Shown piece after piece: positions 47,184 to 63,128 of a stretch of DNA of 64,000 bases. Both the position numbers and the translations under genes were made by a program. The notes beneath the pieces are model-generated. The model worked only from the letters and a program-made list of their open reading frames with translations, had not been told where the DNA came from and ran no database searches. The stretch covers positions 1 through 64,000 of the forward strand of contig JAJNAZ010000005.1 of assembly GCA_021155855.1 (NCBI GenBank), in the 5' to 3' direction. How positions within the stretch are numbered: the stretch's first letter is position 1; each line of letters starts with the position of its first letter. Source of the DNA: Solirubrobacterales bacterium. Its GTDB lineage: Bacteria; Actinomycetota; Thermoleophilia; Solirubrobacterales; 70-9.

Positions 47184-48200
47184 TTAGTCCCTCGGTGCCT
47201 CAGTCTTCCAGCGCCAGGTCTCCACGCGTTCCAGGGGATCAGCAGTCAGCTCAAGATCGATCATCTCCCCCACGCGGCGCTCTCGGGCCTCGGTCCGCAG
47301 TAGAACGGGTGGCCAGTTGGTCGGCGGCGCGAGCGGAGCGTTGGTGAACCGATTGACGGCATCGAAATGGGCTACGAAGTAGACGACCAGCCCATGCTGG
47401 ACGCCCGCCGAGGTTGCCGGGCGGCGCGAGCCGACGCGTGCGGGCAGGTTGGCGGGCCCGTGGCGCTCGAGGTCGATCGAGAAAACGGGCTCCGGCTCGC
47501 AGAGAAGGCGCTTAAAGGCGGCAGCCACCGCGCTCTGCGGCGGGGGATAGCTGGGTATCTCCCGCGCGACCGCTCGCAGCGCCGAGAAGTCGAGGCCCTC
47601 CACCCGATGTTCCCAGATCAGCGGCATCACTCTGTCCTCGCGTAACTCAGCGGGCTCGACGTAGACGTCGAATCGATTGGGCAGGATCCGCCCGCCGGGC
47701 CGAAGCACCCGGTCGCGCAGGGCGGCGACGCTTGTAACCATGCGTTCGTTGAAGATCGCCTTGCCGATCTGCTCTTGGACGATTACGTCCACAGCTTCGT
47801 CCGGGTCGAAATTGTCGCTGTGGATGCTCCTGAAGTCGATACCGCCAAGTCCGTTGGCCTCAGCCAATGTCCGAGCCAGATCCACCGCACTGTGGTCGAT
47901 CGCATAGACCTTCCGCGGCCGCCGGCGCGTTGCCAGGCATGCGAGGATTCCGACGCCTGTCCCAAGATCCAGGACAACGTCACCCTCCTTCACGTTCGTC
48001 GCGATGCCCTGCGCATAAGCTCGAATCCTGACCTCGTCGGCGAGCATCGCGTCGTGAACCGCCAGGTTCCCAAACTCGTCTCGGTTGACCGCGTCGTAGA
48101 AGAGTCGTTCCAGGCGCGGGTTCCGCGTGACCCGCCGCTTGAGCCGCACGGTGCCAGAGAACATCGCACGGGCGATACGCTCGGCCATCCTGCCGGGCAT
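47184..48200 (-). CDS. PRMT-like class I SAM methyltransferase
   Basis: A 338-aa protein. The SAM site is VVLDLGTGVGILACLATR (about 75-92) with AIDHSA (motif II). In place of the eukaryotic double-E loop it has VIVQEQIGKAIFNERM (about 138-153), where two Glu flank the active site as in protein arginine methyltransferases. The C-terminal beta-barrel-like region is about 170-330. Bacterial members are rarely characterised. The ATG shares one base with the upstream gene stop (TGATG). Substrate unknown. Confidence 0.82.
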   Translation of the reverse strand: MPGRMAERIARAMFSGTVRLKRRVTRNPRLERLFYDAVNRDEFGNLAVHDAMLADEVRIRAYAQGIATNVKEGDVVLDLGTGVGILACLATRRRPRKVYAIDHSAVDLARTLAEANGLGGIDFRSIHSDNFDPDEAVDVIVQEQIGKAIFNERMVTSVAALRDRVLRPGGRILPNRFDVYVEPAELREDRVMPLIWEHRVEGLDFSALRAVAREIPSYPPPQSAVAAAFKRLLCEPEPVFSIDLERHGPANLPARVGSRRPATSAGVQHGLVVYFVAHFDAVNRFTNAPLAPPTNWPPVLLRTEARERRVGEMIDLELTADPLERVETWRWKTEAPRD

Positions 48201-48820
48201 CAGCGATCGAAGCTCGACTCTTCGATTCGGCAGTCGGGCGCGCAGCCCTCCAGTTTCCCGACGACGTCGAGGAACCTCTTCTCGTCGATCACATACGGCG
48301 TATCACTGGTCGCGCTCCAGAGGTGATTACCGATCACGGCGTAGGCCGCCCTGCCTTGCTCGACCGCTTCAACCTCGTCGGCGCTGTGGAGAAAGGCGTT
48401 GATGTAATCGCGAGTCCTTTCGGGTGTAGGGATTGCATTGACCTGGAGATGGTCGCGGCCGAGACGGAACACCCCGTACCTCTGGTCGGTGCCTTCGGGA
48501 GGAGTGACACCGCCCTCTCCACGGCCATCCAGGTTGATCCACAGGGTGGCCTCGGAGGATGTGACGATGATGTCGTCGTGACACTCGACCCCCTCACCCT
48601 CCTGACAGGAGATCAAGCCGTAGCCGGCCGCCGCCGCCCGATCTTGAATCTTCACGAGAGACTTGGCAGCGTCGGATGTCTCAGGGGAAGGAGGCGACGA
48701 AGGGGGCGAATGGTCCCGTGTGAATCCAAGGATCAAGGCTGTAACAGTGAGTGCTAGTGCGACGGGCAGTGCGACGAGGTCGAAGAGATTCGGGGGAAAG
48801 TTCTTGCTGAGCCGGTTCAT
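48200..48820 (-). CDS. hypothetical membrane-anchored protein
   Basis: A 206-aa product. After 14 residues one membrane helix (LVALPVALALTVTALILGF) is followed by a Pro/Ser-rich spacer and a globular extracytoplasmic domain of about 150 residues. The domain has four Cys (CQEGEGVEC near 78-86 and CAPDC near 196-200), probably two disulfides. No family recognised. It is coupled to the PRMT-like gene downstream and divergent from the lasso-peptide exporter. Confidence 0.65.
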   Translation of the reverse strand: MNRLSKNFPPNLFDLVALPVALALTVTALILGFTRDHSPPSSPPSPETSDAAKSLVKIQDRAAAAGYGLISCQEGEGVECHDDIIVTSSEATLWINLDGRGEGGVTPPEGTDQRYGVFRLGRDHLQVNAIPTPERTRDYINAFLHSADEVEAVEQGRAAYAVIGNHLWSATSDTPYVIDEKRFLDVVGKLEGCAPDCRIEESSFDR

Positions 48821-49034: not shown

Positions 49035-49658
49035 ATGGCCTCTCCGCTGCTCAAAGTTCATCGCCTGGGGCGCCGCTTCGGCCCCCGCGAGGTCGTGCGT
49101 TCGCTCGATCTGGAGCTCGAGCCGAGCCAACGGGTCGCGCTGGTTGGCGCGAATGGCTCCGGGAAGACAACCGTGCTCCGCTGCGTCGCCGGGACCTTGT
49201 TGCCTGACCGCGGCGAGATCAGCATCGCGGGCCACGCCGCCGGCTCGATGGCGGCCCGCCGCCTGGTCGGCGCCTCGCTTGCCCAAGAACGCTCCTTCTA
49301 CCTGCGGCTGACGGGGCACGCCAACCTGATGTTCTTCGCCCGGCTTCGCTGCGCCACCGAGCGGGAGGCGGCGAGCCAGGTAAGTGAACTGGAGGAGGAG
49401 CTCGAGCTTTCCGAGATCCTCTCGAAGCGCACCGACGCCTGCTCCGCCGGAATGTTGCAGCAACTCGCGTTCGCCCGGGCTCTGCTCGGGGCTCCCGGGC
49501 TTCTCCTCCTCGACGAGCCGACGCGGTCGCTGGACGCAGATGCCGTGCAGCGCCTGTGGGCGGCGATCTCGCGACGGTCGCGAATGGCGGTGCTGGTCGC
49601 AACGCACCGTGACGAGGATCTCGACTACTGCGATGGCCGCCTTGAGCTTCCCGCCTAG
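49035..49658 (+). CDS. ABC transporter ATP-binding protein (lasso-peptide export)
   Basis: A 207-aa single ABC domain. Walker A is GANGSGKTT (about 38-46), the Q-loop is at SLAQERSF, the signature is degenerate (CSAGMLQQLAFARAL rather than LSGGQ), Walker B is LLLLDEP, and the H-loop is VATHRDED. It powers the permease encoded next, whose gene begins 26 bp inside this one. The position at the head of the lasso operon suggests export of, and self-immunity to, the peptide. ATG 49035. Confidence 0.9.
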   Translation: MASPLLKVHRLGRRFGPREVVRSLDLELEPSQRVALVGANGSGKTTVLRCVAGTLLPDRGEISIAGHAAGSMAARRLVGASLAQERSFYLRLTGHANLMFFARLRCATEREAASQVSELEEELELSEILSKRTDACSAGMLQQLAFARALLGAPGLLLLDEPTRSLDADAVQRLWAAISRRSRMAVLVATHRDEDLDYCDGRLELPA

Positions 49659-50460
49659 GCTTTCCCGAGGACGGGCGATTCTCGCCATCGTCCGCCGCGA
49701 TTACCTCGTCAGGCGCTCCTACCGGTTGGCGATCGGAATGGATCTCGTCTTCGGGGTCATGAACCTGCTCCTTTTTTATTTCATCTCCCGCACATTCGAG
49801 GATGCCGCCACGGCACCGCTCGGTGGAGCGCCGGACTACTTCGCCTTTGCGGTCGTGGGCATGGCGGTCACGCTTGTGGTGCAGGCCGCGATCACCGGCC
49901 TCGCGGTCAGGGTTCGCGAGGAGCAGCTGACCGGCACGTTGGAAACGCTGGTTGCTCAACCGCTTACGGCGACCGAGATGTCTCTCGGTCTATGCGGAGT
50001 GAGCTTCGTCTTTGCGATGCTGAGAACCGCTTTCTACTTGCTGGTCGCGGGACTGTTGCTCGGGTTGGATCTCGCCGGGGCCGACTGGAGCGGGTTCGCG
50101 ATCGTGCTGTTGGCGACCTGGCCCGCGATGGTCAGCCTTGGAATTCTCTCGGGCGCGGTGGTGATGGTCGTCAAGCGCGGCCAGGGCGTGATGGGCATGT
50201 TCGTCTTCGGGATGGGGTTGTTGAGCGGTGCCTTCTTTCCGGTCACGGTGCTTCCGGATTGGCTCGAACCGGTGGGCGCGGTGGTTCCGACCCGCTTCGC
50301 GTATGACGGGATTCGCGGCGCCCTCTACCAGGGCAGCGGCTGGCTCGCCGACGCCCTCATGCTGGTGCTCTTCGGAGCCGTCTTCCTACCGCTGGCGATC
50401 CTCGCCTTCGCCGCTGCGTTCAAAGCCGCCAAACGATCCGGCTCCTTGAGCCAGTACTGA
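49633..50460 (+). CDS. ABC-2 type transporter permease
   Basis: A 275-aa permease with six predicted membrane helices, including the ABC-2 pattern VREEQLTGTLETLVAQPLTATE on the cytoplasmic loop (about 95-115) and GMGLLSGAFFPVTVLPDWLE before the last helices. ATG 49633 lies inside the ATPase gene. Lasso clusters usually export with a fused McjD-type protein; here the two parts are separate, as in many actinobacterial RiPP clusters. It is followed 44 bp later by the RRE gene. Confidence 0.88.
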   Translation: MAALSFPPRLSRGRAILAIVRRDYLVRRSYRLAIGMDLVFGVMNLLLFYFISRTFEDAATAPLGGAPDYFAFAVVGMAVTLVVQAAITGLAVRVREEQLTGTLETLVAQPLTATEMSLGLCGVSFVFAMLRTAFYLLVAGLLLGLDLAGADWSGFAIVLLATWPAMVSLGILSGAVVMVVKRGQGVMGMFVFGMGLLSGAFFPVTVLPDWLEPVGAVVPTRFAYDGIRGALYQGSGWLADALMLVLFGAVFLPLAILAFAAAFKAAKRSGSLSQY

Positions 50461-50504
50461 TCGGGAACGCCTGAATCCCTTGCCTGCGCAAGGGAGGTGG
50501 TAGG

Positions 50505-50828
50505 GTGCACGGCCGGTTGACCGACGCTCGGACGCAGGGAGGGGAGCAGGGAGAGGCTGCGCAGCTGCGGCCCGCTCGAGATGTTGCCGCCCGCCGGCTG
50601 GGCGACAAGATCGTGCTCGTCAACCTGCACACGAACTTGATCTTCGAGCTCAACCGCACCGGCGCCCGACTGTGGGAGCTGCTCAGCGATGGCTTGGACC
50701 GGGCCGAAATCGAGCGATGCATGCTGCAGGAGTTCGACGTCGATCGGGACACCCTCCGGGGGGAGATCGACGGGCTGCTCTCGTCGTTGCGTGAAGCCGG
50801 GCTCGTAACGGTGGATGCTGGTGGCTGA
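50505..50828 (+). CDS. PqqD-like RiPP recognition element (lasso B1)
   Basis: A 107-aa protein. After a disordered N-terminus, residues 25-105 form the PqqD/RRE fold: VAARRLGDKIVLVNLHTNLI, FELNRTGARLWELL and IDGLLSSLREAGLVTV. In lasso biosynthesis this protein grips the precursor leader and delivers it to the B2 peptidase. GTG 50505 is preceded by GGGAGG at about 9 nt. The stop overlaps the cyclase start (ATG 50815). Confidence 0.9.
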   Translation: MHGRLTDARTQGGEQGEAAQLRPARDVAARRLGDKIVLVNLHTNLIFELNRTGARLWELLSDGLDRAEIERCMLQEFDVDRDTLRGEIDGLLSSLREAGLVTVDAGG

Positions 50829-52605
50829 GACCGTCGTGACTGCGGCGCCGGCCGGCCGCGCCGCCTGGGTGGGCGGCGAGCCGGAGATCCGCGCGGCGGA
50901 GGACGAGTGCGAGGCGTGCTTCGAGGGCACGCTGGACAATGCGGAGGAGCTACGCCGCGCGCTCTCCCTTGGCGAGTCGGCTAGCGCCGCCGAAATCGTC
51001 GTGCGGGGATATCTGCGGTGGGGCGCCGAGATGGTCCCCCGTCTACGGGGCGCCTTTGGACTGCTGATCTGCGATCACCGCCGCAACACAGCGCTTTGCG
51101 CGCGCGATCCGGTCGGCATCCACCCGCTCTTCTATGCGGAGGCGGACGGGAAAGCGCTCGTCTCGACGTCGATCCAGGACCTGCTCGACGACCCCCGAGT
51201 GCCCAGCTCGGTGAACCGGCTGGCCCTCGCCGATCACCTGTGTCACCGCTGGGCACACCGCGAGGGGGGGGAGACTTACTTCGAGGCAGTGCGGCGGATT
51301 CCACCAGGGCACGCTTTACGGATGTCGGCTGCCGGGAGACGAATGTACCGCCATTGGGATCCGGTCCGCCCCGAGGAGGACGTCGACTGGGTGAGTGAAG
51401 ACGAGCTCGAGCGTTTCGACTCACTCTTGGACCAAGCACTGGACCGCTGCATCGACGGCGGCCAAGCAGGTATTTGGCTGAGTGGAGGATTCGACTCGGT
51501 GACGGTCGCCGCGATCGCTGCCGATCGGTGCCGCAGGCATGGCTGGCCGGACCCACAGGCGCTATCGCTCATCTTTCCTCATCCGGACGCAAACGAGGAA
51601 TCGGTCCAGCGCGGCGTCGCGAATGCGCTCGGACTCCCCCACTTCCTGATGGAGTTCTTCGACGCGGTGGGCGATCAGGGCATGCTGGCGCCCGCGCTCG
51701 ACATGGCCAGGGGGTGGCCCGCGCCGCTTCTCAGCTTCTGGTTGCCCGCCTATCGCCAGCTCGGACTCGAGGGACGGCGTCGCGGCTGCACGACATTCTT
51801 GAACGGGGACGGTGGGGATGAGTGGCTTACCGTCACCCCGACCTACGCCGCCGATCTGTTACTGGCGCTCGATTTCACGGGCCTTTACCGCCTCGGTCAA
51901 AGCCACAGCCGTTCCTTTCGAACCTCGCGCCTGCGAGTGGTGCGCAATCTCCTGTGGCGATTCGGTGCCCGCCAGGTGATTGCCGCTGCGGTGGGTCATA
52001 CCGCGCCCTGGGCGATGCGAGCACTCAGACGCCGCAGGCTGGCGCGCGCGATGCCGGATTGGGTGGCCCCGGACCCCGCGCTTCGGCATGCGCTCGATCA
52101 ACGTGCAGAGATTCGATCGTTTCCACCGCCCAAGGACTTCTACATGAGAGAGCTGCGAGCGACGCTCGACCACCCCCTCGTATCAATGACCCATGAGGAG
52201 ATCTTCGAGAACGGTCGCCGCTTCGGTGGCCGCGTGGTCCGGCCATTCCTCGACGCCGACCTCGTCGACTTTCTGTTCCGCGTGCCACCTGAGCTTCTCA
52301 ATCGCGGCGGATACGCCAAGGGGCTCGTGAGACAAACCGTGGCAACGCGGTTTCCCGAACTCGGCTTCGCGCGAAAGAAGAAGGTCACTGCCACGGCCTT
52401 CTCCCGCCCACTGCTCGCCGCCGAGGGAGCGCGGATCTGGAAGTCGATGGGGGGCACCCCGGCCCTCGTCGAGGCCGGCCTCGTCGATCCCGATGGCGTG
52501 GGGCGCTGCATCGAGGAGGCACTTGCCTTCCGCGCCACGGGACGCTACGGTTACCGTATCTGGGATATTCTCAGCCTTGAGGCGTGGCTCCAACCCCGTC
52601 TCTGA
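50815..52605 (+). CDS. lasso peptide macrolactam cyclase (asparagine synthetase-like, C protein)
   Basis: A 596-aa ATP-dependent enzyme that activates an Asp/Glu side chain of the core peptide and closes the isopeptide ring on its N-terminus. The N-terminal glutaminase-like domain (10-200) has lost the catalytic Cys2, as in other lasso cyclases. The synthetase domain carries the PP-loop IWLSGGFDSVTVAA (about 220-233), and LNGDGGDEWL near 330 and RKKKVTATAF near 520 complete the site. It starts inside the RRE gene and ends 23 bp before the precursor gene. Confidence 0.92.
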   Translation: MLVAETVVTAAPAGRAAWVGGEPEIRAAEDECEACFEGTLDNAEELRRALSLGESASAAEIVVRGYLRWGAEMVPRLRGAFGLLICDHRRNTALCARDPVGIHPLFYAEADGKALVSTSIQDLLDDPRVPSSVNRLALADHLCHRWAHREGGETYFEAVRRIPPGHALRMSAAGRRMYRHWDPVRPEEDVDWVSEDELERFDSLLDQALDRCIDGGQAGIWLSGGFDSVTVAAIAADRCRRHGWPDPQALSLIFPHPDANEESVQRGVANALGLPHFLMEFFDAVGDQGMLAPALDMARGWPAPLLSFWLPAYRQLGLEGRRRGCTTFLNGDGGDEWLTVTPTYAADLLLALDFTGLYRLGQSHSRSFRTSRLRVVRNLLWRFGARQVIAAAVGHTAPWAMRALRRRRLARAMPDWVAPDPALRHALDQRAEIRSFPPPKDFYMRELRATLDHPLVSMTHEEIFENGRRFGGRVVRPFLDADLVDFLFRVPPELLNRGGYAKGLVRQTVATRFPELGFARKKKVTATAFSRPLLAAEGARIWKSMGGTPALVEAGLVDPDGVGRCIEEALAFRATGRYGYRIWDILSLEAWLQPRL

Positions 52606-52628
52606 CATCGACGCGCAGGAGGTAATTC

Positions 52629-52778
52629 GTGGATAAAAAGCACGAGAGGGTCTGGGAGTCGATGAGGCTCGACCCCGTCGGGCACATCGGTGATGTGCTG
52701 AAGGGTGGCGGGGGCAAGCTGTCCATTGTCTCGGACGACTCCGGCGACGCGCCGCGTAAGCCGTCGGGACTGGAGTAA
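52629..52778 (+). CDS. lasso peptide precursor (A)
   Basis: A 49-residue peptide from GTG 52629, with a strong AGGAGG ribosome binding site 6 nt upstream. The leader begins MDKKHERVWESMRL and contains DPVGHIGDVL (15-24), resembling the Pro/Gly motif that RRE proteins bind. A GGGGK junction at 26-30 precedes the core. The likeliest core starts at Gly29: its ninth residue is Asp37 and its eighth Asp36, either of which could close an 8- or 9-membered macrolactam with Gly29. The rest is a 12-13-residue tail ending KPSGLE. Cleavage after Gly28 is inferred; Gly28 as first core residue would put Asp36 at position 9. Confidence 0.82.
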   Translation: MDKKHERVWESMRLDPVGHIGDVLKGGGGKLSIVSDDSGDAPRKPSGLE

Positions 52779-52794
52779 CGGGCTTCTGACGGAA

Positions 52795-52837
52795 ACTCCG
52801 GCGGCGGGGAGGGTTTCGCCTTCCCTACCGCCGGAGT
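52795..52837 (+). terminator. large perfect hairpin between precursor and kinase genes
   Basis: ACTCCGGCGG (52795-52804) pairs with CCGCCGGAGT (52828-52837). Inside, a GGGGAGGG/CCTTCCCT arm adds further pairing around a TTTCG loop. It starts 17 nt after the precursor stop and has no T tract, so it is more likely a partial terminator or a 3' stabilising structure that lets the precursor be made in excess over the downstream enzymes. Confidence 0.65.
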
Positions 52838-52850
52838 CCCTCTGCCTCCT

Positions 52851-53666
52851 ATGCTGACGCTCAGGGCGGGGCCGGCCGGTGCCGTGCCCGAGGTCCCCCC
52901 GGGAGCGGAGGTCTGGCGAGACTCCGACGATAGAGTCGCCGCCTTCGGGTTCACGGTCGCCGGCGATCGCTGGATGAAGCTTCCCGGCGTCGCGAGTTTT
53001 CGCTTCTCCGACGGTCCAGAGGTGACATCGTTCGCCGAGCCCGGCGTTTCCGAGGAGAGGGTGCTGGACGCTTACCGGCGCACCGTGCTTCCAATGGCCC
53101 TGCAAGCGCTGGGAGCGGAGGTACTACACGCGAGTGCTGTGCGGATGGGCGAGGGCGTAGTTGGACTATGCGCCGTCTCGCAAACCGGGAAGTCGACGGT
53201 CGCCTACGCCCTCAGCAGGCGGGGGCATAGGATCGTCGCCGATGACGCCGTGCCATTCGACCTCTCAGGGCCGACCCCACGTGCCTTACGGCTCCCCTTC
53301 GAGCTCAAACTGCGTCCGGAGTCAGCCTCGTTCTTCGGCGTCTCCGGCCGGGTGACAGCTTCGGATCACGACGACAGTGACCCCGCCGAGCTGGCGGCGC
53401 TCTGCGTTCTCGAGCGCTCGCATCCCTCGGCCCCCGGAGGTCCGGTGGTGGTCCGTCGTCTCGAGCCGGCGAGCTCCTTTCCACGGGTCCTCGCCCACGC
53501 CTACTGCTTCAGCCTTGAGCCTCCCGAACGGCACGTCTTGATGGTGGAGCGCTACCTCGAGCTGGTGGCGCGCGTTCCGGTTTTCGAGGTATGCCTGTGG
53601 CCGGGACTGCACAATCTCGACCGCGTCGTCGACGAGATCGAGGGCGCCGTCCAGGCAGCCGCGTGA
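52851..53666 (+). CDS. HPr kinase-like lasso peptide kinase
   Basis: A 271-aa protein with an HPrK-type P-loop (CAVSQTGKSTVAYALSRRG, about 104-122) followed by IVADDAVPFD. Homologues in paeninodin-type lasso clusters phosphorylate a serine near the peptide C-terminus. Here the precursor has Ser46, four residues from the end. The HPr-binding signature of true HPr kinase/phosphorylase is not evident. ATG 52851 lies 14 nt after the hairpin without a clear ribosome binding site; the stop overlaps the B2 start (GTGA). Confidence 0.82.
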   Translation: MLTLRAGPAGAVPEVPPGAEVWRDSDDRVAAFGFTVAGDRWMKLPGVASFRFSDGPEVTSFAEPGVSEERVLDAYRRTVLPMALQALGAEVLHASAVRMGEGVVGLCAVSQTGKSTVAYALSRRGHRIVADDAVPFDLSGPTPRALRLPFELKLRPESASFFGVSGRVTASDHDDSDPAELAALCVLERSHPSAPGGPVVVRRLEPASSFPRVLAHAYCFSLEPPERHVLMVERYLELVARVPVFEVCLWPGLHNLDRVVDEIEGAVQAAA

Positions 53667-54211
53667 GCGCCTCGGCAGACGAGAGCCGGCGAACGCCGGC
53701 CGCACGGGTTCGCGCCTTGATGGCGTTCGTGGCGACGCCTGGCGACGGCGTGCTGCTCGCACGCATGTTCGCCTGGCGCCTCTGCCTCCCGGTGCTGAAG
53801 TACGTGTTGCCCCTGCCGCGCCTCGTACGGTTGATGTCATCCCGACCCCGACGAGGCGGCTTGCGGCGGCCGCGCGAGAGACGGATCGCGACAATGGCGG
53901 CATGGCTCTATCGGCGAGGCGGCATCCTGGCAACCGACGACAACTGTCTCGAGAGAAGCCTGCTCGCGTACCGATACCTGGCCCGCGAGGGTGGTGCGCC
54001 GACACTCGTAGTCGGGATGCGACCCGACTCGGACGCAGATCCACGCGGACATGTATGGGTCACCGTCAGCGGGCGGTCCGTGACCGACACCGAGACCTCG
54101 CTCGATGCTTTCCGTACGGTGGTCTCGTTCGGCGCCGACGGAGTTCGTGCGGCCCACGACGACCGTACCCATGACGGTCGCCGCCCCGGATCCTTCGTCG
54201 GCGCCGGGTGA
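53663..54211 (+). CDS. transglutaminase-like leader peptidase (lasso B2)
   Basis: A 182-aa cysteine peptidase that removes the precursor leader. The catalytic Cys lies in TDDNCLERSLLAYRYLAREG (Cys about residue 95), the His in RGHVWVTVSG (about 130), and the Asp in VTDTETS. This is the short Transglut_core3-type domain of lasso B2 proteins. GTG 53663 overlaps the kinase stop. It is the last plus-strand gene of the cluster; the next gene converges on it. Confidence 0.88.
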   Translation: MSASADESRRTPAARVRALMAFVATPGDGVLLARMFAWRLCLPVLKYVLPLPRLVRLMSSRPRRGGLRRPRERRIATMAAWLYRRGGILATDDNCLERSLLAYRYLAREGGAPTLVVGMRPDSDADPRGHVWVTVSGRSVTDTETSLDAFRTVVSFGADGVRAAHDDRTHDGRRPGSFVGAG

Positions 54212-54279
54212 CGAAAGCGGACGCCGCTCGGTCGGACGCGGGATCCGTCACCTGTTCACACATGTTTGGGGCAGGACAC

Positions 54280-55272
54280 TCAGCCAGCGTGCGAGTTCTG
54301 CCCTCGCCGCGCTCGCCGCACGGCGACGATCGCCCTCGGCAGCCGCACGAGGATCCAGATCAGCCGCCAGATGTAGGCGAGCCACAAACCGAGACCACCC
54401 TGCAGTAGCGCCCGGGCCCAGGGCCATGAACGGCCGCTGGCCCACTTTCGCATGTAGCCCGGCGATGGGAAGAGCGCCCCGAACAAGAGGCGAGCGCGTG
54501 CACGAAGCGGCCCCTCACTCGCGAGCCGCTCAAGGGTGATCGCCGCCCGGACCTCCGGGCCGGCGCGCAGAACGACCAGGGGCGGGCGATCCGCGGGGAG
54601 CTGCAGACGCTCCACCAGCCGCCTGCCTGCGGGGTCGTCGAGGCGAAGCCCGGCGGCAAACGCGGCTAGAGCGTCCACTCGCCGCGCCAGTTCGCTCGCC
54701 TCGCGCCAAACCTGCTCGTCGACCGCTCGGACGGCTCGCCCGAGGTCCTGCAGCGGGCGCTCGTGGTCGACCCCGTGCTGGGCCGCGTGAAGGGCGAGGT
54801 GCAGCGCCCGCCCCGGCATGCCGAGCACCTCGACGTCGATGCCGCCCACGCGCAGCGTCTCCGTCTCCCGAGCAAGCTCTTCCCAAAGAACGTCAGGGGA
54901 GGCGCAGACACCGACTAGAGAGCGATGGAGATCGACGGAGGCGTTGTCCGAGTGACGCAGCCAGGCCTGCGAATCAACATGCCCCTGGCTCAGGTAGCCG
55001 AGCGGGCGGAATCCGAGCGCCCGAAGAGCATTCTCCGCCGGCCGGTATGAGCCGGGGGATACGAGCAGGTCGGAATCTCCGTATGGGCGCGCAGCGCCGT
55101 CTCCGTACAGCCACCCGGCGATTGACGGTCCCTTGAGCAACAGCGGTCGAATCCCGGCATCGCGCAGCGCCGTGACCACCTCGGCGGTGACGGCATCGAC
55201 GGCGAGGGCGAGCGCGGTGGCGCGGATGCCTGGGGACGGGGGAAAAACGGTGCCGTTCTGCATCTGGGACAA
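54280..55272 (-). CDS. nucleotidyltransferase-fold protein (NTP_transf_5-like), probable lasso tailoring gene
   Basis: A 330-aa protein with the nucleotidyltransferase-like signature LLLKGPSIAGWLYGDGAARP, then YGDSDLLV (G-D-x-D, about 65-71), and NASVDLHRSL (a third acidic residue). This pattern resembles the uncharacterised NTP_transf_5 family, which occurs near lasso and other RiPP genes. It has a C-terminal hydrophobic segment (ALLQGGLGLWLAYIWRLIWI) and a basic tail, so it may sit on the membrane. It is encoded on the opposite strand, converging on B2 with a 68-bp gap. Start ATG/TTG 55272 is not certain. Confidence 0.78.
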   Translation of the reverse strand: MSQMQNGTVFPPSPGIRATALALAVDAVTAEVVTALRDAGIRPLLLKGPSIAGWLYGDGAARPYGDSDLLVSPGSYRPAENALRALGFRPLGYLSQGHVDSQAWLRHSDNASVDLHRSLVGVCASPDVLWEELARETETLRVGGIDVEVLGMPGRALHLALHAAQHGVDHERPLQDLGRAVRAVDEQVWREASELARRVDALAAFAAGLRLDDPAGRRLVERLQLPADRPPLVVLRAGPEVRAAITLERLASEGPLRARARLLFGALFPSPGYMRKWASGRSWPWARALLQGGLGLWLAYIWRLIWILVRLPRAIVAVRRARRGQNSHAG

Positions 55273-56516: not shown

Positions 56517-56590
56517 AGCCCGGAGTCGGATTCGAACCGACGACCCCCTCCTTACCATGGAGGTGCTCTGGCCTGCTGAGCTATCCGGGC
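56517..56590 (-). tRNA. tRNA-Thr (GGT)
   Basis: Folds as a full cloverleaf on the minus strand: acceptor GCCCGGA/TCCGGGC, D arm GCTC...GAGC, anticodon stem CCTCC/GGAGG with loop ATGGTAA (anticodon GGT, Thr), T arm GTCGG-TTCGAAT-CCGAC. No CCA is encoded. Its first 10 nt overlap the 3' end of the esterase gene. Confidence 0.95.
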
Positions 56591-63046: not shown

Positions 63047-63128
63047 GGGGGAGTGCCCGAGCGGCCAAAGGGAACGCGCTGTAAACGCGTCGGCTATGCC
63101 TACGCAGGTTCGAATCCTGCCTCCCCCA
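63047..63128 (+). tRNA. tRNA-Tyr (GTA)
   Basis: Class II cloverleaf: acceptor GGGGGAG/CTCCCCC, discriminator A, anticodon stem ACGCG/CGCGT with loop CTGTAAA (anticodon GTA, Tyr), a long variable arm (CGGCTATGCCTAC) and T arm GCAGG-TTCGAAT-CCTGC. No CCA is encoded. Confidence 0.96.

Follow-up and report, generated by a model that had tools for sequence, protein, structure and literature searches.

A lasso-type cluster from Solirubrobacterales belonging to a rare cross-phylum subfamily with a displaced ring acid

How a lasso-type peptide could be cut and closed into a ring, when its core carries no acidic residue at the expected distance from the leader, is the question raised by a biosynthetic cluster in the 64,000-nucleotide stretch analysed here (the window, contig JAJNAZ010000005.1) from a Solirubrobacterales bacterium of the class Thermoleophilia. 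At 49035-55272, a first-pass annotation had described an exporter, a leader-binding recognition element (RRE) of ribosomally synthesized and post-translationally modified peptides (RiPPs), a cyclase, a 49-residue precursor, a kinase, a leader peptidase (B2) and a convergent nucleotidyltransferase. Profile searches with Pfam and NCBIfam models, complemented by structure prediction for the kinase, found each gene in its place and tightly packed. Genome-mining tools rely on two lasso rules, a Thr at leader position -2 and an N-terminal ring of 7-9 residues. The window cluster belongs to a multi-phylum clade that departs from them in a uniform manner, with a Lys, a Ser/Thr and an Asp staying in register; either B2 cleaves elsewhere or the cyclase takes another amine, which makes the true cut site and ring of the window peptide a testable question. 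As judged from sequence, the cluster is of the lasso type and represents a distinct RiPP subfamily that is rare and spread over several phyla, and we tentatively favour (probability about 0.42) a lasso product with a normal 9-residue ring, formed after a late cut at GGG/GK.

The precursor and its conserved core

The precursor gene (52629-52778, + strand, 49 codons) has a GTG start, preceded at 6 nt by AGGAGG, and gave no family match in the profile searches. We consider it real because of this AGGAGG and because clusters from other phyla have a conserved leader and core in the corresponding position, a conservation on which the first-pass annotation had made its own reading depend. The leader ends in ...WESMRLDPVGHIGDVLK, and the usual cut would leave a core of 24 residues, GGGGKLSIVSDDSGDAPRKPSGLE. 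Compared with the published lasso leader register, YxxPxL at -17 to -12, the spacing is exact, with Trp for Tyr, Leu(-12), Gly(-8) and a residue of the V/L/I/M group at -2. In the window this last residue is Leu and not Thr; Ile and Val have been published as exceptions to Thr(-2).

The same searches also yielded 39 Thr(-2) precursors, which served as controls and were placed on the same leader register. After the usual cut, an Asp or Glu is found at core positions 7-9 in 34 of these 39, which indicates that the register works, versus one of the 12 cores of the GGGGK type defined below (Fisher p 1e-6, a value that overstates independence, the 12 cores being related). The Thr(-2) precursors with no acid at 7-9 are L136 (position 1176), L158 (position 996), L045, L140 and L042. 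The first acids of the window core stand at 11 and 12 after the usual cut, and at 8 and 9 if the cut is placed three residues later. Since a normal cut leaves no ring-closing acid at 7-9, a lasso product cannot simply be read off, a point that the first-pass annotation overlooked.

Twelve of the 17 members of the cyclase clade described below have cores that fit the pattern GGGGK[LM][ST]xxxxD[PST]G[DE]. Measured from the usual cut, the conserved Asp is at 12 residues in nine of these cores, at 11 in two and at 18 in the remaining core; if counting starts at the residue preceding the Lys (Gly in ten of the 12, Asn in two), it is at 9 in ten cores and at 8 in two. Over the clade as a whole, a Lys lies 6-7 residues ahead of an acid in 16 of 17 members (mean of 3.7 and maximum of 10 in 5000 shuffles), and a Ser or Thr at Lys+1 or Lys+2 is likewise found in 16 of 17 (Ser at Lys+2 in the window), whereas the distance from the leader to the Lys varies from 2 to 11 (values of 2, 3, 3, 5, 7 and 11). 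With the Lys-acid spacing fixed and the distance to the leader variable, it seems that the enzymes recognise a unit of Lys, Ser/Thr and Asp in the core sequence instead of measuring from the leader. For a lasso peptide the core is also unusually conserved, suggesting that the products share one target or role.

A cyclase clade spanning several phyla

We used the B2 family to scan 399 genomes of the class, then looked at wider regions, and found the complete set of ATPase, permease, RRE, cyclase, precursor, kinase, B2 and nucleotidyltransferase, in near-identical order, in three other Thermoleophilia (L031, L032 and L043), as well as a diverged relative (L044). These genomes of the same class are recorded as Thermoleophilia metagenome-assembled genomes (MAGs), which supports the first-pass annotation in placing a lasso-type cluster with kinase and nucleotidyltransferase in this class. 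Scanning GTDB with a cyclase alignment added loci from Acidobacteriota, a Phycisphaera MAG, Vicinamibacteria and a 'Deltaproteobacteria' MAG, and three more came to light when a kinase profile was run against 396 Acidobacteriota, 343 genomes from the phylum of the Phycisphaera MAG and 345 from that of the deltaproteobacterial MAG. With this profile, members of the subfamily score at least 176 bits and outsiders at most 131 bits, and the subfamily is, on these searches, rare and set apart. It is absent from the genome of the same genus.

In the cyclase tree, the 17 loci form one clade (support 100/100), which spans Thermoleophilia, Acidobacteriota, Planctomycetota and a 'Deltaproteobacteria' bin. 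Each of them combines a kinase, a Trp-type leader and V, L, I or M, never Thr, at -2. The branching inside the clade does not track taxonomy, the deltaproteobacterial MAG being placed among Thermoleophilia. A single clean clade for the GGGGK cores was considered and rejected, given that core type would have to change about five times along the tree and that L031, with its canonical ring, adjoins the window.

The window cyclase (50815-52605, + strand), an asparagine synthetase-like protein (PF00733, 96.6 bits), has no Cys at position 2 and keeps the SGGxDS and GxGGDE motifs. It scores 137.7 bits with the asn_synth model (cut-off 267) and 127.6 bits with the lasso cyclase model (cut-off 525), below both cut-offs, and its clade consists solely of kinase-bearing RiPP loci. 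Its sister in the tree is the cyclase of L031, where the core GATGTLGDGGGGSKRT (at about 7000, - strand) fits a normal 8-residue ring, GATGTLGD, with no Lys ahead of the acid. The pair is a natural switch between core types, and the sister core leads us to expect that the window type of enzyme makes small rings. The transglutaminase-like B2 (53663-54211, + strand) scores 55.2 bits with the lasso-specific model NF033537 (lasso_biosyn_B2, cut-off 33), the kind of model with which the first-pass annotation had proposed to check it, and 56.4 bits with PF13471, and keeps the Cys and His of the catalytic columns in the alignment. B2 co-occurs with the cyclase clade in most loci; in L048 and L051, no B2 was detected in the vicinity of the cluster.

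Cleavage, ring closure and phosphorylation

What the sequences show is the gene content, the protein families and their conservation, the membership of the clade and the spacing rule that ties Lys, Ser/Thr and Asp together; the chemical steps below are all inferred. The RRE would bind the Trp-type leader, and the HPrK-fold kinase would phosphorylate Ser7 of GGGGKLSIVSDDSGDAPRKPSGLE, the Ser/Thr after the conserved Lys, and not the C-terminus. B2 would take off the leader, most probably through a late cut at the Gly3-Gly4 bond that yields GKLSIVSDDSGDAPRKPSGLE, in which the cyclase would link Gly1 to Asp9 (Asp12 of GGGGKLSIVSDDSGDAPRKPSGLE) to give the 9-residue ring. The nucleotidyltransferase would modify the phosphate, the exporter would secrete the product, and a PRMT-like enzyme encoded to the left of the exporter would probably methylate it, perhaps at the single Arg of the core.

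Of the 12 GGGGK-type cores, 11 have a Gly two residues ahead of the putative late cut, and the next residue is variable (G, I, S or Q), which resembles the fixed(-2)-variable(-1) pattern of the canonical site and fits a late cut. With the residue preceding the Lys as the first of the ring, rings of 9 or 8 residues would result, the 8-residue, Asn-first ring being that of L058 and L138. Metanodin likewise begins its ring with Asn and not Gly, but keeps Thr(-2) and has a classical proteobacterial ABC layout, unlike the window (PMC12670498).

Several observations weigh against the late-cut reading. We found no published precedent for a cut at an offset of 3 residues (up to 9 in the relatives), and BsfB2 cuts directly after Ile(-2)-x (PMC10368454), a canonical spot that a hydrophobic residue also occupies in the window leader. 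After a late cut, the rings of L044, L056 and L057 would begin with Ile, Leu or Thr. At -14, where L051, L052, L058, L137 and L138 have Pro, the window leader carries Met, the cyclase scores marginally higher with the asparagine synthase model than with the lasso cyclase model, and no product has been reported.

An alternative that we regard as unlikely keeps the usual B2 cut and joins the side chain of Lys5, instead of the N-terminus, to Asp12, giving a side-chain-to-side-chain macrolactam with Lys and Asp as ring positions 1 and 8 and a free glycine-rich N-terminal extension. The variable leader-Lys distance and the fixed Lys-acid spacing would then need no moving cut site, and four of the five Thr(-2) misfits also have a Lys 6-7 residues ahead of an acid, versus six of the 34 with an acid at 7-9 (Fisher p 0.011, small sample). 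However, known lasso cyclases use the N-terminal amine, the sister locus L031 has no such Lys, and the recurrent Gly two ahead of the late cut would be left without a reason. It is quite improbable that the homologues of RRE, kinase, B2 and cyclase yield no lasso at all, but a linear or otherwise cross-linked phosphopeptide. The ambiguous family-level assignment of the cyclase, a core motif so constrained across phyla and the two loci with no B2 found nearby would agree with such a product, whereas the cyclase motifs are intact, B2 accompanies the clade in most loci, and the cores of L031, L044, L056 and L057 fit normal lasso rings.

A 12-residue macrolactam between Gly1 and Asp12 after the usual cut (11 residues in L058 and L138) is decidedly improbable: nine of the 12 cores do have the Asp at this distance, and BsfA proves that cleavage at the canonical place occurs with a hydrophobic -2 residue, but a ring of 18 residues would be required in L043, the rings of characterised lasso peptides have 7, 8 or 9 residues (PMC13352647), and an 8-residue ring is available in the core of the sister cyclase. 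Considered jointly, closure by the Lys side chain or a ring of 11-12 residues, by which an Asn-synthetase-like lasso enzyme would make a macrolactam that does not involve the N-terminus or that exceeds the 7-9 limit, is somewhat unlikely. The original reading, an ordinary paeninodin-type lasso peptide with a C-terminal phosphate, is highly improbable, as the window peptide has neither a C-terminal Ser, nor Thr(-2), nor an acid at 7-9, even though the gene set is that of the paeninodin and pseudomycoidin clusters and the His-Lys-Asp-Asp residues of the kinase are present.

The kinase (52851-53666, + strand) remains under the Pfam and NCBIfam cut-offs (PF07475, 24 bits against 33.3). Nevertheless, Foldseek searches with its AlphaFold model, built from a 12-row alignment with a mean predicted local distance difference test (pLDDT) score of 90.3, returned HPr kinase/phosphorylase structures first and then phosphoenolpyruvate carboxykinases, which have the same nucleotide-binding fold. 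H93, K114, D131 and D132 are invariant in the alignment and correspond to the His-Lys-Asp-Asp set described for lasso kinases (review PMC9266682), so that the assignment as an HPrK-like kinase stands. The acceptor proposed with it is unsupported: ...PSGLE forms the end of the window core, and just one of the 17 clade members has a Ser at the C-terminus, versus 16 with a Ser/Thr after the Lys. BsfK acts, with help of the RRE, on core Ser3 and not on the C-terminus, and BsfA has no C-terminal Ser (PMC10368454). By this analogy, and with a C-terminal Ser wanting, the Ser/Thr after the Lys would be the likelier phosphorylation site.

The nucleotidyltransferase-fold gene (54280-55272, - strand; PF14907, 104.6 bits, over the cut-off) keeps its DxD motif and is expected, by analogy with PsmN of pseudomycoidin, to act on the phosphate. 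Its counterparts are adjacent or near in L031, L032, L043, L044 and L057, and its presence in only some relatives indicates an accessory gene.

Among the closest known systems, the bsf cluster of Bradymonas sediminis FA350 (PMC10368454) shares with the window the split B1/B2, the cyclase, the exporter, the HPrK-like kinase, the nucleotidyltransferase, a hydrophobic residue in place of Thr(-2) and, putatively in the window, an inner Ser as acceptor. In contrast, BsfA has a Tyr-type leader, with Gly1 and Asp8 directly after the cut, whereas the window has its acid 12 residues past the usual cut, an intervening GGG, an invariant Lys and the added PRMT-like gene. Pseudomycoidin (PsmK/PsmN) and paeninodin (PadeK) also have an HPrK-type kinase with His-Lys-Asp-Asp, and pseudomycoidin a nucleotidyltransferase-fold partner (PsmN), but these kinases act on a C-terminal Ser and Thr(-2) is present (PMC9266682). 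The pair of kinase and nucleotidyltransferase was therefore already known from pseudomycoidin and bsf, and the hydrophobic -2 residue from bsf. For the GGGGK core family and its displaced ring acid we found no description in the open literature, an earlier mention in subscription papers, supplements or figures, which are not searchable, being possible; lasso peptides of Thermoleophilia are mentioned there only sparsely.

Other genes of the cluster and its surroundings

The exporter comprises an ATPase (D1, 49035-49658, + strand; PF00005, 88.8 bits) and an ABC-2 permease (D2, 49633-50460, + strand; PF01061, 56 bits), with 55-63% and 50-55% identity, respectively, to their counterparts in L031, L032 and L043; the inferred start of the permease overlaps the ATPase gene. 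The RRE (B1, 50505-50828, + strand) is a PqqD-like protein (PF05402, 59.2 bits, cut-off 23.4) with lasso_PqqD_Strm as top NCBIfam match, the lasso PqqD models being the best-scoring ones but under their cut-offs. Its gene overlaps that of the cyclase, and the kinase and B2 genes have a GTGA in common.

The gap between precursor and kinase holds a hairpin (52795-52837, + strand) with 19-nt arms and a folding energy of -43.8 kcal/mol (z -4.3), and L047 and L050 have hairpins of unrelated sequence at the same place. A Rho-independent terminator was rejected, as there is no T-run; a candidate role is in setting the ratio of precursor to enzymes, which the hairpin may do by raising the precursor over the enzymes.

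The set named in the first-pass annotation is present, but its description as complete overlooked a PRMT-like methyltransferase gene (47184-48200, - strand), at which the left end of the cluster probably lies, beyond 49035. Foldseek matched its model (pLDDT 75, weak at the termini) to PRMT2/PRMT6 (E 7e-24), and PRMT_C is over the cut-off in two relatives. The window protein has two Glu nine apart (EQIGKAIFNE), which we take to be the PRMT double-E spacing; the relatives at lasso loci do not keep both. A profile search located relatives at 17 other lasso loci, all kinase-bearing, mostly beside the kinase gene. The gene is single-copy in the window genome and, in five further lasso genomes, single-copy and at the cluster, and the sole strong match among 60 related genomes besides the window's own is again located at a lasso cluster; the gene is missing from 14 genomes belonging to the window's clade. 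The placement makes it a probable extra tailoring gene. A PRMT-type enzyme confined, across the searched genomes, to lasso clusters would be a new tailoring enzyme, and no PRMT-like methyltransferase is named in the searchable lasso literature. The precursors of the methyltransferase-bearing clusters L039, L067, L071, L077, L124 and L152 often end in -CL, possibly a shared C-terminal signal.

Overlapping the methyltransferase gene by one base is an open reading frame (48200-48820, - strand, start approximate) for a single-pass membrane or extracytoplasmic protein, with no Pfam match and no relative in the fetched loci. Horizontal gain was considered from base composition and gave no clear signal (63-70% GC in cluster genes versus 67-72% in the flanks), and neither PADLOC nor a kinase search of plasmid records returned a match. 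To the right of the cluster lie a tRNA-Thr (56517-56590, - strand) and a tRNA-Tyr (63047-63128, + strand).

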